The position numbers and the translations under genes are program-made. A stretch of DNA of 64,000 nt from Nitrospirota bacterium (lineage in GTDB: Bacteria; Nitrospirota; Thermodesulfovibrionia; Thermodesulfovibrionales; UBA1546). Below the pieces are notes generated by a model. That model ran no database searches. It had not been told where the DNA came from and was given only the letters and a program-made list of their open reading frames with translations. Shown here one piece after another: positions 17,905 through 47,019 of this stretch (its first letter is position 1; every line of letters starts with the position of its first letter). The DNA is taken from the NCBI GenBank assembly GCA_016195565.1, contig JACPZK010000033.1, positions 1-64,000 on the forward strand, in the 5' to 3' direction.

Positions 17905-18588
17905 TTGAAAAAGATACTCATAGCCGACTCCCTAAAGCATCTTGTGTCAGGGGAAAATATCTTAAGCAGAGCCAACACCCAGATACTTACCGCCGCTTCC
18001 TCTCAAGAAATTCTCTCTATACATAAAAACGAAAAGGCAGATTTAATAGTAATTGACCTTGATATGCCCGGTATGCCGGGCGACGAGTTCTGCTCCCTGC
18101 TGCGTAAAGAGCCTGACTCTAATCTTGTAAAGATTCTTATAGCAACAGAGCCCAAAGAGACGGATATTAAACGAGCCGAGCGATGCGGCGCCAATACCTA
18201 CATCACAAAGCCAATTAATTCTGCTTTATTCTTCAGTAAAATCGCTTCCCTTCTTGATGTCCAGACCAGAAAGGCTTACAGGATGCCGGTGAAAGCAACA
18301 GTTGCGGGAGAAATGGGGAACGTTAAGTTTACTGCCAGCACTATTAATATAAGCTCTACCGGCATACTTATTGAGTCTGCCCAGCCTCTTAATGTAAGAG
18401 ATATCATCAATTGTTCTTTCCATCTGCCGGGGACCCTTACCATCTTTGTTACGGGGGAGGTCGTCCGCATACTTAAAAAACCCGCCGGAAATATTCATCA
18501 GTACGGAATAAACTTCACATCAATCAGCGCTTCTGCACAGCGGATAATAGAAGACTTTGTAAAGAGCCCCGATAAAATCGGGGTATAA
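17905..18588 (+). CDS. Response-regulator receiver fused to a PilZ domain
   Basis: A 227-residue cytoplasmic signalling protein with TTG start behind a GGAGGGA site. Residues 1-120 are a CheY-like receiver: the phospho-acceptor is the Asp of VIDLDMPGMPG, and the switch residues are ATEP and the Lys of ITKPIN. Residues ~125-220 are PilZ: RKAYR gives the c-di-GMP-binding RxxxR, and NISSTG replaces the usual DxSxxG (Asp to Asn). No output DNA-binding domain. It probably links a histidine kinase to c-di-GMP control of surface behaviour. The last codons are formed by a 17-bp palindrome, and the 3' end is duplicated at 21.4 kb. Confidence 0.88.
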   Translation: MKKILIADSLKHLVSGENILSRANTQILTAASSQEILSIHKNEKADLIVIDLDMPGMPGDEFCSLLRKEPDSNLVKILIATEPKETDIKRAERCGANTYITKPINSALFFSKIASLLDVQTRKAYRMPVKATVAGEMGNVKFTASTINISSTGILIESAQPLNVRDIINCSFHLPGTLTIFVTGEVVRILKKPAGNIHQYGINFTSISASAQRIIEDFVKSPDKIGV

Positions 18589-18637
18589 TTTGTTCCAAAT
18601 TATCGGAAAAAGCGAAGGCTCGGATATTATATGTTAG
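18528..18637. repeat. Duplicated 3' end of the receiver-PilZ gene, copy A (copy B 21370-21509)
   Basis: Begins CGCTTCTGC, includes the last codons of the gene, and ends TATATGTTAG. Copy B matches with scattered changes and carries an extra parS-containing block. The two direct repeats bracket 2.8 kb of accessory DNA. Confidence 0.8.
18567..18583. repeat. 17-bp hairpin CCCCGAT-AAA-ATCGGGG at the end of the receiver-PilZ gene
   Basis: Perfect 7-bp arms and 3-bp loop, translated as the last codons (SPDKIG). It could also serve as a weak terminator. Confidence 0.65.
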
Positions 18638-20607: not shown

Positions 20608-20740
20608 GAGCTTGTCTAAAAACTACCATTTCAATATAAAGTCGTCATTTTCGCGAAGGCGGGAATCCAGTCTTTTCAATATGTTCTATATTCCCCGGTC
20701 AAGCCGGGGAATGACAAAATCTGAGTTTTTAGACAAGCTC
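20608..20740. mobile_element. MITE-like element with 17-bp perfect terminal inverted repeats
   Basis: GAGCTTGTCTAAAAACT (20608-20624) and its exact complement (20724-20740) bound a 133-bp non-coding element. Inside is a REP-like pair related to the repeat at 3641-3701 (GCGAAGGCGGGAATCC and CCCCGG/CCGGGG arms). No target duplication is obvious. The 180 bp before it hold three copies of ATAGGGACA and no gene. Confidence 0.75.
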
Positions 20741-20796: not shown

Positions 20797-20818
20797 AATT
20801 GTTCCACGTGGAACAATT
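20797..20818. promoter_or_regulatory. parS: parS-type ParB-binding site, copy 1
   Basis: A perfect 22-bp palindrome whose central 16 bp are TGTTCCACGTGGAACA, flanked by AAT/ATT. It matches the conserved bacterial parS consensus (TGTTNCACGTG core with symmetric arms). The same 22 bp occur at 21430-21451 and 24876-24897. Confidence 0.85.
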
Positions 20819-21013
20819 AAGATTAAAGGGGTAATTCCGGAACTGCAAAATGCCTCAAATCTGCCATGCTGATTTTATTGTTTACCTTTCTTAATACCTA
20901 ATTTTTATGCTATATTGTTTCAACTAAAATGATAAAATAAAACATGTCTATTGCGGAGACAATGATTTGATAATTAAGGGGCTTATCTGGTTTGATGATA
21001 TTAGGGAAACTAT

Positions 21014-21280
21014 ATGAGAAAACATAAAAGTTCGGTATCAGAGGCAACATCTTACAAGGAAATCGGTGAGTTTTGGGATGCCCATGATTTATCGGAATTT
21101 TGGGATAAAACCAGAGAAGCATCATTTGAAGTAGATATTAAGTCAGAGGTTACTTATTACGCTGTTGACAAAATGCTTTCTGAAAAAATTCAGGCTATCG
21201 CTCAAAAGCGTGGTGTGCCTGCTGACACTCTGATTAATCTTTGGGTACAGGAAAAACTTCAGGAACAAAGAGCATCTTAA
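21014..21280 (+). CDS. CopG-family antitoxin without an adjacent toxin
   Basis: An 88-residue protein with SYKEIGEFWDAHDLSEFWDK, the FWD-x-HDL signature of the CopG antitoxin family (PF12441 type), and a C-terminal ribbon-helix-helix-like LSEKIQAIAQKRGVPADTLI. Usually paired with a BrnT-like or similar toxin, but the flanks here are non-coding repeats, so it looks like an orphan or anti-addiction remnant. The start has a TTAGGG-type weak ribosome binding site. Confidence 0.78.
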   Translation: MRKHKSSVSEATSYKEIGEFWDAHDLSEFWDKTREASFEVDIKSEVTYYAVDKMLSEKIQAIAQKRGVPADTLINLWVQEKLQEQRAS

Positions 21281-21369
21281 GAAGACATTTGGTTAAAAGA
21301 TAGGGGCGCAACTTCACATGACAACACAGTGGCGCAAGCCTAAGGGGAAATCCTGATAAATCGGGGGTT

Positions 21370-21509
21370 CGCTTCTGCGCAGCGGATTATAGAGGACTTT
21401 GTAAGGAGCCGCTTCGAGCCATCGGTATAAATTGTTCCACGTGGAACAATTTTGTGCTATATTGTTCCAAATTATCGGAAAAAGCGAAGGCTCGGATGGT
21501 ATATGTTAG
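21370..21509. repeat. Duplicated 3' end of the receiver-PilZ gene, copy B
   Basis: Diverged copy of 18528-18637: same CGCTTCTGC opening, AGCGGAT, GACTTTGTAA, and the shared TTGTTCCAAATTATCGG then AAGCGAAGGCTCGGAT blocks. The 17-bp hairpin of copy A is replaced by an unrelated 17 bp, and a parS-containing block of about 30 bp is added. Confidence 0.8.
21430..21451. promoter_or_regulatory. parS: parS-type ParB-binding site, copy 2
   Basis: Same 22-bp palindrome as copy 1; 16-bp core at 21433-21448. It lies within the duplicated receiver-PilZ 3' region. Confidence 0.85.
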
Positions 21510-21658
21510 AGATCATCATGATAAAGGCATTTTGGCACGCGGAGCCGCCGCAGCCAGCCTCTTGGGAATATAAAATCTAAATCACCTATCAAAATGAGAT
21601 ATAGCAAAAAAACAGCAAATAAGCCCCCGAAAAATATAAATGGAGCAACAAGACAGAG

Positions 21659-22054
21659 ATGACCTACAGTAATTTTTTTTCCGGCCTTGTTGGTACACTC
21701 TTTGGCGTCATTGCCACTCTTGCCATCTACCTGCACAGTCGATACACCGCTTCCAGAAGAGCCCTCGCCGACAGGCTCATTATTCTTCGCTATGATGTTT
21801 GGTGGAACTGCACTGACACCGACGTGTTCAAAACGTGGGACGCAAGCCTTAAGGATATCTGGATTCTCTACAACGCTTATTACGACGTTGCTCCGCTGTG
21901 GCGAAGGCGCAGCATTAAAAAGGCATGGGATAAATACAAAGGAGTAAATCACTACATATTGGATCACCTTCCCAATGTTCCTGATGTTAAAATGTTTCCA
22001 AAATCTAAGGAAGAATTTATTCAAAATATCACATCCTTTCTAAAGGCATTATGA
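21659..22054 (+). CDS. Small membrane-anchored protein of unknown function
   Basis: 131 residues starting MTYSNFFSGLVGTLFGVIATLAIYL, one N-terminal membrane anchor, then a soluble charged part (LADRLIILRYDVWWN; APLWRRRSIKKAWDKYKG). A GTTAG site lies about 150 bp upstream, and an attC-like hairpin starts 8 bp after the stop, the arrangement of an integron cassette gene. I do not recognise the family. An overlapping minus-strand frame is judged spurious. Confidence 0.6.
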   Translation: MTYSNFFSGLVGTLFGVIATLAIYLHSRYTASRRALADRLIILRYDVWWNCTDTDVFKTWDASLKDIWILYNAYYDVAPLWRRRSIKKAWDKYKGVNHYILDHLPNVPDVKMFPKSKEEFIQNITSFLKAL

Positions 22055-22061
22055 AAAAGTT

Positions 22062-22118
22062 CGCTAACAAAGCACTCGTGCCGATTCGCTCCGCTCCCGG
22101 CACAGTTTCATCGTACGA
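22062..22118 (+). repeat. attC-like site, degenerate
   Basis: Core GCTAAC (22063-22068), then hairpin GTGCCG (22078-22083)/CGGCAC (22098-22103). The right-hand GTTRRRY core is not intact (CGTACGA instead). It begins just after the stop of the small membrane protein. Confidence 0.5.
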
Positions 22119-22197
22119 AAAAATATATTTCAGAGAAAATGACATCGTCGTCAATGACCGAATTAAATAAAAATTTGGGACTGAGAAGGAGTGAAGT

Positions 22198-23889
22198 GTG
22201 GCAATAGAACCAGCCCCTTTTAATTACCATAATTATCTTGGAGATAGATATGTGGTTAATGATATTAAAGAAGGCGGTGCTGGCATTGTCTATCTCTGCT
22301 ATGATAAGTTTCTCAAGGCGCCTGTTGCTCTCAAAACATTCAAGTTTAATAGCGATAAAGATTGGAAAACTGTTCTTGCTCATTTTATTTCTGAGGCAAA
22401 GAAGTGGATACATATTGGGCAAGACATTTACGTTGTTCAGGCGTATTATATTCACAACATTGAGATGGAACATGGTATTGTTCCTTTTGTAGCTATTGAG
22501 TTCATAGAAGGGCATGAATTATATGGAAACTCTCTCAGGGGTTTTATCGCGAAGGCATCCTTTAACTTAGAACTAATTTTGAATATTGCCATTTCAATTT
22601 GTAACGGCATGCTTCATATTCAAAATAAATTCTTGAACGCCATATTTGTACACTGTGACCTCAAGCCTGAAAATATATTGCTTTCAAAAGAAGGTAGTAT
22701 AAAAATCACCGACTTTGGGATATCTAAGACTCTCTACGATAATTCAGATAGGCTTAGCTCCCTGAATCAATCTTCTATAGGCAGTGACGGTAGATTTTCT
22801 GTCGGGTTGACAAACAATATCTGTGGAACACCTCCTTATATGTCACCAGAGCAATGTTTAGGCTTAAAATCAATAGATCAATGTTCAGACATATATTCAT
22901 TTGGTTGCATTCTTTATGAAATGTGTACAAAAAGGTTTGTTTTTCAAACACATGTCCTAAGTGACTTTTTTATAAGCCATATTAGTGAAGTGCCAATCTC
23001 ACCTGATTTGCTTAATCCAGATATCCCAAGTGAATTATCAAAATTAATTCAACAATGCTTATCGAAAGACCCTAAAAATCGCCCGCAACAATTTAAGGAA
23101 GTAAGAGACATTTTAATGAATATTTTAAATCAAGAATATGGACAAGGAAGTGGCGTTAGATTTTTTACTTTTGGCTTCTCGGGATTTACTGATAAACCCA
23201 GAGTCAAATCTGATTACAACATGAGCAGGGAGAATGAGGCACTTCTTCTTGGAAAAACAATGGGTGTTGAATATGTTATAGACCAGGGCTTAGTAAGCAG
23301 TAAGAATGAATTTGATATGCTTGATGCAGACTATGAAAAAAACAGAGATAGTCAAAGAAAATTATCGGAATATAACAGACAAGTTGAAAAGGCGGAAGAA
23401 CAGCTTCTTGCAGGTGATTCATTTTTAAAGCTTTATGAAGCGGCTGAGCCCGATGAAGGCTTAGAACTCATCAGGTCTGCTTTAAATAATTACTACTTTG
23501 CACAAAAAGTTCTATCCCTTGAACCTGAATTAAGCTTTAGGATCGGCATTGCAAATTTCAATCTTGCAGGAATACTAAGAAATGAATATAACAAGGTTTT
23601 GTTAAGTGATGATTATATTGCCATTGCCATCGGAGAATTTAATAGTGTATTAACAATAATGGAAGAACCAGAGCTAATTTCCATAGGCTCACAATTCTAT
23701 CTTTTACCCTATGCAGCCTTGTTTTATCGCGCCGGTGCAAATGCTTTAAAAAACGAAAAAGACAAGGCATCAAATGATTTTAATAAACTGATAGCATGGC
23801 TTGAAAAAAGTAACATACCCAAATATGAAGGAATAAAAAAATATTTGATAGAAACTGCATCTGAAGGCTTGGAGTTACCGAATGATTAG
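22198..23889 (+). CDS. Hanks-type serine/threonine protein kinase
   Basis: A 563-residue soluble kinase with GTG start behind GAGAAGGAG. The kinase domain covers about residues 15-310: glycine loop EGGAGIVYL, catalytic Lys in VALKTF, HCDLKPEN (HRD variant with Cys), DFGIS, and the activation-segment end GTPPYMSPEQ. APE, DxWSxG-type and helix I motifs are present (DIYSFGCILYEM; SKDPKNRPQ). The C-terminal ~250 residues are helical and repeat-like (possibly TPR). There is no membrane span and no adjacent phosphatase. It sits between two attC-like sites. Confidence 0.9.
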   Translation: MAIEPAPFNYHNYLGDRYVVNDIKEGGAGIVYLCYDKFLKAPVALKTFKFNSDKDWKTVLAHFISEAKKWIHIGQDIYVVQAYYIHNIEMEHGIVPFVAIEFIEGHELYGNSLRGFIAKASFNLELILNIAISICNGMLHIQNKFLNAIFVHCDLKPENILLSKEGSIKITDFGISKTLYDNSDRLSSLNQSSIGSDGRFSVGLTNNICGTPPYMSPEQCLGLKSIDQCSDIYSFGCILYEMCTKRFVFQTHVLSDFFISHISEVPISPDLLNPDIPSELSKLIQQCLSKDPKNRPQQFKEVRDILMNILNQEYGQGSGVRFFTFGFSGFTDKPRVKSDYNMSRENEALLLGKTMGVEYVIDQGLVSSKNEFDMLDADYEKNRDSQRKLSEYNRQVEKAEEQLLAGDSFLKLYEAAEPDEGLELIRSALNNYYFAQKVLSLEPELSFRIGIANFNLAGILRNEYNKVLLSDDYIAIAIGEFNSVLTIMEEPELISIGSQFYLLPYAALFYRAGANALKNEKDKASNDFNKLIAWLEKSNIPKYEGIKKYLIETASEGLELPND

Positions 23890-23898
23890 AAAGCCAGC

Positions 23899-23988
23899 GT
23901 ACAACAACCAAATCGAGGCGACAGGGGATAGCCTCTGTGGTTTTTTGCAAGGGCTGGTTGCCCCTGCGCCTCATTTAGTGCGTTAAAC
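23899..23988 (+). repeat. attC-like site after the kinase gene
   Basis: Long imperfect hairpin with arms GAGGCGACAGGGG (23915-23927) and CCCCTGCGCCTC (23961-23972). It ends with GTTAAAC (23982-23988), which fits GTTRRRY. The left core is ACAAC rather than a clean RYYYAAC. Confidence 0.55.
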
Positions 23989-24001
23989 ATATTAACCATA
24001 T

Positions 24002-24109
24002 ATGATAAAAATAACCTATAAAAATTTTAGCGGTGCGTTATTGGTTGCATGGCTTGTGCCTGTTGAGGCGCAAGGAGCGCCTGCGGATGGCGCGAAACGC
24101 CCCCGCTGA
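24002..24109 (+). CDS. Micro-ORF, copy 1 (signal-peptide-like)
   Basis: 35 codons, including GALLVAWLVPVEAQGAPADG. It is homologous to the micro-ORF at 24755, and the shared part (24035-24093) is a direct repeat. Together they flank the addiction module. It may not be expressed; no clear ribosome binding site. Confidence 0.35.
   Translation: MIKITYKNFSGALLVAWLVPVEAQGAPADGAKRPR
24035..24093. repeat. 59-bp direct repeat flanking TA module, copy 1
   Basis: Matches 24791-24849 at 54 of 59 positions. Confidence 0.85.
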
Positions 24110-24153
24110 TTTGGGTCTTTAGGCGTGCTATAATATTAAAAAAGGAGGAGATT

Positions 24154-24384
24154 ATGTCTGCATTGATGCAAGAAGTAATAAATAAAGCTTTTAATTTATC
24201 TCCAGAGGAACGCGCAGAATTGGCACATGAGTTGATTGTAAGCATAGATGATGCCATAGACAATGAAGTTGAAACAACTTGGGACACAGAGATTGAAAGG
24301 CGTGTAAAGGAAATTAAAAGCGGCAAGGCGAAAGGGAGACAGGCAGAGGATATACTCGCAGAGATACAAGCTAAATATTCATGA
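24154..24384 (+). CDS. Addiction-module antitoxin (TIGR02574/Unstab_antitox type)
   Basis: A 76-residue acidic helical protein containing ALMQEVINKAFNLSPEERAE and a WDTEIERRVKEIKSGKAKGR tail, the usual form of the short putative addiction-module component paired with RelE/ParE toxins. AAAGGAGGAG ribosome binding site. Overlaps the toxin start by 4 bp. The pair is bounded by 59-bp direct repeats and by attC-like sites. Confidence 0.85.
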   Translation: MSALMQEVINKAFNLSPEERAELAHELIVSIDDAIDNEVETTWDTEIERRVKEIKSGKAKGRQAEDILAEIQAKYS

Positions 24385-24671
24385 AGCGCATCATTGTTCA
24401 CAGTGAAGCAGAACTGGAATTGTGGCAAGCGGTAGAGTATTACGAAACCAAAAGCGTTGGATTAGGGTTGGATTTTGAGCAAGAGGTAAGCCGCGCCCTC
24501 GTCGATATTCAGGAAGCACCCAATCGGTGGCCTACAAGAAAATATGGAACGAGATGTCGTTTGCTCCGTCGATTTCCATATGCTATTTACTATTTGGAAC
24601 TTCAAGATATTATTTGGGTAGTAGCTGTAGCACACACCAGCCGTAGGCCTTACTATTGGCGTAAACGATAG
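24381..24671 (+). CDS. RelE/ParE-family toxin
   Basis: A 96-residue toxin starting MKRIIVHSEAELELWQAVEYYE. The helical pair and the RRFPYAIYYLELQDIIWVVA beta-strands, then HTSRRPYYWRKR, match the ParE/RelE fold. Preceded by its antitoxin with overlapping ATGA. Target (gyrase or ribosome-bound mRNA) cannot be told from sequence. Confidence 0.87.
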   Translation: MKRIIVHSEAELELWQAVEYYETKSVGLGLDFEQEVSRALVDIQEAPNRWPTRKYGTRCRLLRRFPYAIYYLELQDIIWVVAVAHTSRRPYYWRKR

Positions 24672-24692
24672 AAAAGAAGAATTATAATGAGT

Positions 24693-24747
24693 ATCAACTC
24701 ACTTCAGCCGACTCCGTTTCACTGCGCCGCTGAATTTAAGGCGTTAA
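24693..24747 (+). repeat. attC-like site after the TA module
   Basis: Hairpin TTCAGC (24703-24708)/GCTGAA (24729-24734), preceded by ATCAAC and ending AAGGCGTTAAT. It is an imperfect attC pattern, just after the toxin gene. Confidence 0.45.
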
Positions 24748-24754
24748 TCATACA

Positions 24755-24904
24755 ATGCTAAAACAAGCCCTAAAAATCTTAGCAATAGCTGCGTTATTGA
24801 TTGTATGGCTTGCGCCTGTTGAGGCGCAAGGAGCGCTAGCGGATGGCGCCGGATTTATTGAGCGGCGCGAAGGAAAATTGTTCCACGTGGAACAATTGGA
24901 TTAA
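24755..24904 (+). CDS. Micro-ORF, copy 2, with a signal-peptide-like N-terminus
   Basis: 49 codons, MLKQALKILAIAALLIVWLA then PVEAQG, a plausible Sec signal with cleavage after VEA. Its last codons run through a perfect parS palindrome (translated LFHVEQL). It ends at the stop of the convergent DUF4912 gene. No strong ribosome binding site, so expression is uncertain. Confidence 0.4.
   Translation: MLKQALKILAIAALLIVWLAPVEAQGALADGAGFIERREGKLFHVEQLD
24791..24849. repeat. 59-bp direct repeat flanking TA module, copy 2
   Basis: See 24035-24093. Confidence 0.85.
24876..24897. promoter_or_regulatory. parS: parS-type ParB-binding site, copy 3
   Basis: Same 22-bp palindrome; 16-bp core at 24879-24894. 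It lies at the 3' end of the DUF4912 gene, inside a micro-ORF on the other strand. Confidence 0.85.
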
Positions 24905-25719
24905 ACATACCCTGTTACAGGGCCAACTTCGTATATTTCCTGCGGCAGAGCGCCTTCTTCTTTGGCAACCTTCAATGCCGGTGTTGCTGCCTGATTAGAC
25001 CTCGCTATTGCAACAAAATCTCCTGCTTTTGAAACAGCGCCTATGTCAACGATAAATGCCTTGTCAGGCCCCACGCCTATATAGCTGTCTCCTATTCTTC
25101 CGTAAACAGGAACGTCAAAAACCAGATTGGCATTTTTGCCGTCAAAATAGATTCCTGTAACATCATAGACTCTTAAAACAAGCGTTCCTTTAATCTTTGA
25201 CAGTGTATTTTCCTTTACTTCCCAGTAGGCAAAAAGTTTCCACGGGCCAACTGTCATTAATGTAATCCTGTCCTCGCCATATTCAACAGGAAAAGCTTTT
25301 TTTCCTGTAACTGCAACTCCGTACTCTTGCGTGGAGGCAAATCCCTTAACTTCTCTCCTCAGCGAGTCGCCCGAGGCGACCCTTTCTATTTTTTCTATGG
25401 TTCTATGCGGTATGCGCGCTATCTTTTTCGCGGGGAGGGCGATTCTTTTAGGTTCTTTTTTTATTGCCTTTTCTGTTGCTTTCTTCCTGACGGCCGTTTT
25501 TTTCTCTTTCTCTGCTTTTCTGACCGCCGGTTTTTTTGCGACCGCTTTTTTCTGTTCTTTAATCTCTTTCTTTGATTTTATTGGCTTTTTTGCCCTTGTC
25601 TTCCCTTTTGTAACAGCCTTCTTCTCTGTTTTTTTAGGGGATTTTTTATCTTTTATTTTTTCCGTCTTTTTTGACGGTTTTACAGTCTTTTTGCTCTTGC
25701 TCTTAACCCTTATTTTCAT
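24901..25719 (-). CDS. DUF4912 protein with long Lys/Ala/Pro-rich tail
   Basis: 272 residues. Residues 1-120 are a low-complexity basic region rich in KK, KTEK and AKK, resembling histone-H1-like tails and probably nucleic-acid binding. Residues ~145-265 are the DUF4912 domain, with EYGEDRITLMTVGPWKLFAYWEV and VLRVYDVTGIYFDG. The ATG at 25719 is preferred because AGGAGG lies just upstream; an earlier GTG overlaps that site. The parS copy 3 is immediately downstream. Confidence 0.85.
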   Translation of the reverse strand: MKIRVKSKSKKTVKPSKKTEKIKDKKSPKKTEKKAVTKGKTRAKKPIKSKKEIKEQKKAVAKKPAVRKAEKEKKTAVRKKATEKAIKKEPKRIALPAKKIARIPHRTIEKIERVASGDSLRREVKGFASTQEYGVAVTGKKAFPVEYGEDRITLMTVGPWKLFAYWEVKENTLSKIKGTLVLRVYDVTGIYFDGKNANLVFDVPVYGRIGDSYIGVGPDKAFIVDIGAVSKAGDFVAIARSNQAATPALKVAKEEGALPQEIYEVGPVTGYV

Positions 25720-25767
25720 ATCCACCTCCTCTATATAGAATACATTGTAGCAGATTTGTAAAAAATC

Positions 25768-46954: not shown

Positions 46955-47019
46955 GCCTAACCCTGCATTCGAGAGGGACTGCGCAAAAGCGGCGCAGCCC
47001 CTCAATTTGAACGTTAGAT
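46955..47019 (+). repeat. attC recombination site of an integron cassette
   Basis: Outer cores GCCTAAC (46955-46961, RYYYAAC) and GTTAGAT (47013-47019, GTTRRRY). Inner arms GAGGGACTGCGC (46973-46984) and GCGCAGCCCCTC (46992-47003) pair with one mismatch, with extra unpaired bases between the inner and outer arms as in real attC. 65 bp. Confidence 0.85.

Follow-up and report, generated by a model that had tools for sequence, protein, structure and literature searches.

Three identical palindromes crowded into a few kilobases of a Nitrospirota chromosome raise two questions: what they are, and how three of them came to lie so close together. The stretch of DNA analysed here (64,000 nucleotides, hereafter the window) contains the 22-bp perfect palindrome AATTGTTCCACGTGGAACAATT three times in identical form, all within 4.1 kb, with the 16-bp core TGTTCCACGTGGAACA starting at positions 20800, 21433 and 24879 (Table 1). 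The original prediction had located these palindromes correctly and taken them for parS sites. We concur, and consider them, with a probability of about 0.95, to be ordinary chromosomal parS sites of a standard ParABS system, because their core is identical to known parS, they occur only near the origin, the genome has one parA-parB pair whose ParB carries parS-type residues, and the core is found order-wide.

Table 1. Positions of the palindromes and neighbouring features in the window
Feature	Position	Strand	Basis and remarks
Response regulator-PilZ gene	17905..18588	+	Pfam PF00072 and PF07238; synteny; marks parS(A) in the family
Native PilZ 3' end and downstream DNA, parS lost	18528..18637	+	Alignment with G001
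parS copy 1	20797..20818	.	Perfect 22-bp palindrome; region A; flanks like those in relatives G006 and G007
Duplicated block: PilZ 3' end, parS copy 2 and ~60 bp downstream	21370..21509	+	Aligns with the native PilZ-parS junction of G001 at 87% identity (140 bp)
parS copy 2	21430..21451	.	Perfect palindrome; region A; lies in the duplicated block
Ser/Thr protein kinase gene, candidate integron cassette	22198..23889	+	Pfam PF00069; attC-like site directly after
attC-like site after the kinase gene	23899..23988	+	75.9 bits, model R1 (model seed); independent scans; covarying stem
Antitoxin and ParE-like toxin (addiction module), candidate second cassette	24154..24671	+	Pfam PF09720 and PF05016
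Second attC-like site, following the toxin-antitoxin genes	24689..24749	+	38.1 bits, model R1 (model seed, weaker)
parS copy 3	24876..24897	.	Perfect palindrome; site B, 3 bp past the DUF4912 stop codon, adjoining polA
DUF4912 gene	24901..25725	-	Pfam PF16258; synteny; marks parS(B)
Third attC-like match	46955-47019		58.5 bits, attC model
dnaA	51426..52757	-	TIGR00362; cumulative GC-skew minimum (about 52-54 kb) falls here; presumed origin region

The copies are few and confined to one place. By chance, 0.16 core matches with up to three mismatches would be expected in the window, and none of 100 shuffles reached three; beyond the three copies, the window holds no core match at this threshold. 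A scan of the whole assembly (2,303,561 bases in 33 contigs, 99.1% complete) found no further core match with zero to two mismatches, and hence no copies far from the origin, while two matches with three mismatches, neither of them palindromic, are present on contig C6. An extra parS site may sit in a gap of the 33-contig assembly. As predicted, dnaA, dnaN and gyrB are all in the window. Cumulative GC skew, computed over contig C33 alone (68,660 bases, the contig holding the window), drops to its minimum at dnaA and rises after it; the replication origin is thus probably at dnaA, which places the three sites of this genome ~28–33 kb away on one arm. Measured to the dnaA gene itself, the distance is 26.5–30.6 kb from its near end and 28–32 kb from its start, in keeping with the ~28 kb first proposed. 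Local skew is reversed at 18–24 kb and 30–34 kb, the pattern that inserted DNA would give.

The core TGTTCCACGTGGAACA is exactly that of parS2 and parS3 of Pseudomonas aeruginosa (PMC4368675) and is a listed parS of P. putida (PMC7022226). All three palindromes fit the half-site layout NGTTNCACGTGNAACN perfectly, as does the universal parS consensus TGTTTCACGTGAAACA known from Caulobacter and Bacillus; relative to the latter, C/G replaces T/A at positions 5 and 12 here, a common variant, and mixed half-sites are present in the sister species G001, G006 and G007. The Pseudomonas ParABS system likewise combines this 16-bp core, at few sites near oriC, with a single chromosomal ParA-ParB pair (PMC4368675, PMC7022226, PMC5098823). 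In P. aeruginosa, a single parS within a ~650 kb zone around oriC suffices (PMC4368675, PMC5098823), and the distance of the sites in the window from the origin falls well within a zone of that size. The site itself is no different from that of Pseudomonas; what differs is that parAB lies on another contig (C29) than dnaA and parS (C33), and that a zone of variable cassettes lies between the sites.

The genome encodes a complete parA-parB pair. Its one ParB (TIGR00180, E = 6.6e-57; C29:11412-12248, 278 aa) has ParB_N, HTH_ParB and ParB_C domains, and the gene directly upstream (C29:12220-12999) encodes a ParA Walker ATPase whose best PDB matches are ParA/Soj structures (E = 1.3e-89). When aligned to the DNA-binding domain of Caulobacter ParB, positions 173, 179, 184 and 201 are R, Y, K and G. 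R173 and G201 are absolutely conserved among parS-binding ParBs, whereas Noc has Q and R instead (PMC7383237); the equivalents of both residues are thus of the parS-binding type. The translation also contains the CTP motif GERRWR (GERRxR). From what is known of other bacteria, we infer ParB binding, spreading and segregation in this organism: the single ParB would load at the three sites, close as a CTP clamp, and slide and bridge across the surrounding kilobases, and ParA would move the ParB-DNA complex such that newly copied origin regions part first. In six relatives (G012, G014, G016, G028, G039 and G051), a second ParB-family protein scores above the TIGR00180 cut-off besides the chromosomal ParB; these second proteins are possibly plasmid- or element-borne.

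Conservation beyond this genome is broad. A core match with at most two mismatches was found in 56 of the 61 genomes of the order, and an exact one in at least 37, although such two-mismatch matches are weak alone and include chance hits (a reversed-pattern control gave ~1 per genome). Where the site and dnaA share a contig in relatives, they are mostly 4–130 kb apart, with outliers at 390 kb (G019) and 261 kb (G023); in four single-contig genomes, the distances are 11, 24, 82 and 390 kb, a departure from uniform placement (Fisher p = 0.0016). Information content reaches ~2 bits at all 16 core positions, a value partly built in by gathering the sites through core similarity, and stays below 0.9 outside, where the arms exhibit only a weak A/T preference. 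No site with two or fewer mismatches was found in G002, G004 or G015, the last of which does have parB and dnaA; an assembly gap or a diverged site may account for these cases. Accessory genes, repeats and cassettes abound in the zone of the palindromes, which would suit an operator of some local regulator or a repeat belonging to a mobile element. Either origin is scarcely credible, however, for a core that is conserved across the order despite wholly different neighbouring genes, adjoins parB in several relatives (the site is ~0.5–2 kb from parB in G019, G020, G031, G042, G049 and G051), and is absent from the rest of this genome. A MITE-like element of ~130 bp with 24-bp inverted ends (GAGCTTGTCTAAAAACT...) is located at 20608-20740, 57 bp to the left of parS copy 1.

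Within the genus, gene order around the sites is argS, fur, feoB, response regulator/PilZ, parS(A), variable genes, parS(B), DUF4912 and polA (argS, fur and polA were identified by reading translations). The window (copy 3), G001, G003, G005 and G007 share site B, which comes immediately after the stop codon of DUF4912, and site A is found at the PilZ 3' end in G001, G006 and G007 of the genus and in G008, G011 and G013 of the wider family. Because these positions are conserved within the genus, both A and B are inherited.

Their placement is also what an intrinsic terminator would show: a 9-bp stem with an ACGT loop and a short U run lies just past a stop codon, 3 bp beyond that of DUF4912 at site B in the window and 3 bp beyond that of PilZ at site A in G001, and the RNA folds at -9.8 to -15.1 kcal/mol, with z down to -4.4. 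Though the hairpin folds, a terminator scan does not call the palindromes, the T run being too short. Moreover, the would-be loop ACGT is conserved, the arms vary freely among relatives, and site-A variants such as TGTTCCACGTGAAACA (G001, G006 and G007) disrupt one pair of the stem while still matching the parS consensus. Nor would a terminator be restricted to three origin-proximal copies in 2.3 Mb. That the palindromes are primarily terminators is therefore very unlikely; they may have a secondary terminator role. An Rfam scan returned tRNAs and 5S rRNA only.

The flanks of the palindromes point to how three sites arose from two. Copy 1 has the left flank ccggtataaat seen in G006 and G007 and the right flank attaagattaaaggg seen in G007, and the right flank of copy 2, attttgtgctatatt, is that of G001 and G006; copies 1 and 2 both derive from site A, and copy 3 is site B. 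At its native PilZ end, the window lacks ~30 bp including parS, between two TTGTTCCA repeats, relative to the sister species G001, which keeps parS there and represents the undeleted state. On the strength of this alignment, one local duplication of ~140 bp gave the extra copy, and one deletion of ~30 bp took the native copy. The count of three goes back to ancestral positions A and B and to this single duplication at A. The original prediction placed copy 2 in a duplicated block, which the comparison of 18528-18637 with 21370-21509 bears out, and proposed that repeats might have spread with the centromere; a local duplication of the PilZ 3' end is what remains of that proposal, since the whole-assembly scan excludes dispersal over the genome. 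The third site is probably redundant, because relatives manage with one or two and Pseudomonas with one. After parS copies 1 and 2 comes a promoter-like stretch, TNTGCTATATTGTT (20900-20920 and 21450-21470), which G001, G005 and G006 retain; being directed towards the cassettes, it could drive them from its place next to parS(A).

The genes between A and B vary by species. The window has a protein kinase and a toxin-antitoxin pair, G001 a GmrSD-type restriction gene and a ParE-like toxin, and G007 HEPN/AbiU2 and DUF2971 genes. After several of them comes a hairpin with features of integron attC sites, namely RYYYAAC ... GTTRRRY at the ends and a single unpaired extra base in the stem. In the window, two such sites with R box, L box and extrahelical bases follow genes, both of them seeds of the search model and the second one weak. 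The attC covariance model was built from ten oriented sites, five of them from the A-B interval; earlier scans had been noisy, a lax version giving 53 matches in shuffles and a second version missing the G001 site. Counting pairs on the named stem of the seeds gave 81.5% paired cells, and covariation exceeded all 500 shuffles and all slid controls, while RNAalifold found no consensus structure in the gapped attC alignment. Two matches outside the seed set (L174 1564 and 2218) lie directly beside a complete integron integrase (C17:3094-4026) in G001, as expected for a real integron, and two more lie between parS and polA in G011 (C16:34784, and L094 9432 = C16:29432).

Complete IntI above the cut-off is present in 6 of the 16 family genomes searched (G001, G004, G005, G008, G010 and G012), and the window's own genome has integrase fragments at contig ends only. 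Contigs C5 and C26 of that genome (both 2-154) each start within the final 50 codons of an integron integrase gene, which looks as though repeated integrase or cassette DNA had interrupted the assembly. The toxin-antitoxin pair is flanked by direct repeats of ~110 bp (window 23980-24897), of which G005 has one copy without the toxin-antitoxin genes (L089 3975-4188), an empty site. The repeat starts exactly after the attC end, at the GCG/TTAA junction, hinting that the cassette may carry a copy of the target sequence. Similar single attC-like sites are scattered over contigs C4, C6, C10, C24, C29, C30 and C31 of the window's genome. Because attC sites also occur elsewhere and five of the ten seeds came from the interval, enrichment of attC at parS is only suggested.

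The arrangement resembles the CALINs defined by IntegronFinder 2.0 (PMC9024848), which likewise consist of genes each with an attC-like site and no adjoining integrase gene, but here it lies between parS sites and in a Nitrospirota order. Only two CALINs were reported in that paper for the phylum it calls Nitrospira (PMC9024848), and the literature searched held no paper linking parS with attC arrays. We tentatively propose, as a reading we regard as doubtful, that integron cassettes (kinase, toxin-antitoxin, GmrSD-type defence) insert preferentially into the A-B gap of this genus, and that their insertion, with accompanying duplications, alters the number and spacing of centromere sites, such that an integron remodels the centromere. 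This cassette hotspot between A and B is the sole element of the locus that is possibly novel.

In conclusion, the parS finding itself is expected biology: the proposal that this accessory zone carries the chromosomal centromere is supported by the parA-parB pair on C29 and by conservation of the core near dnaA across the order. For an uncultured Nitrospirota bacterium, the sites show where the probable centromere and the origin side of the chromosome lie, and they indicate that a Pseudomonas-type parS core is in use across a whole order of this phylum. Cassette turnover between A and B, together with the duplication and loss of parS, provides a natural record of change in centromere-site number. 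Should the more tentative reading prove true, an integron would be remodelling the centromere of its host chromosome.
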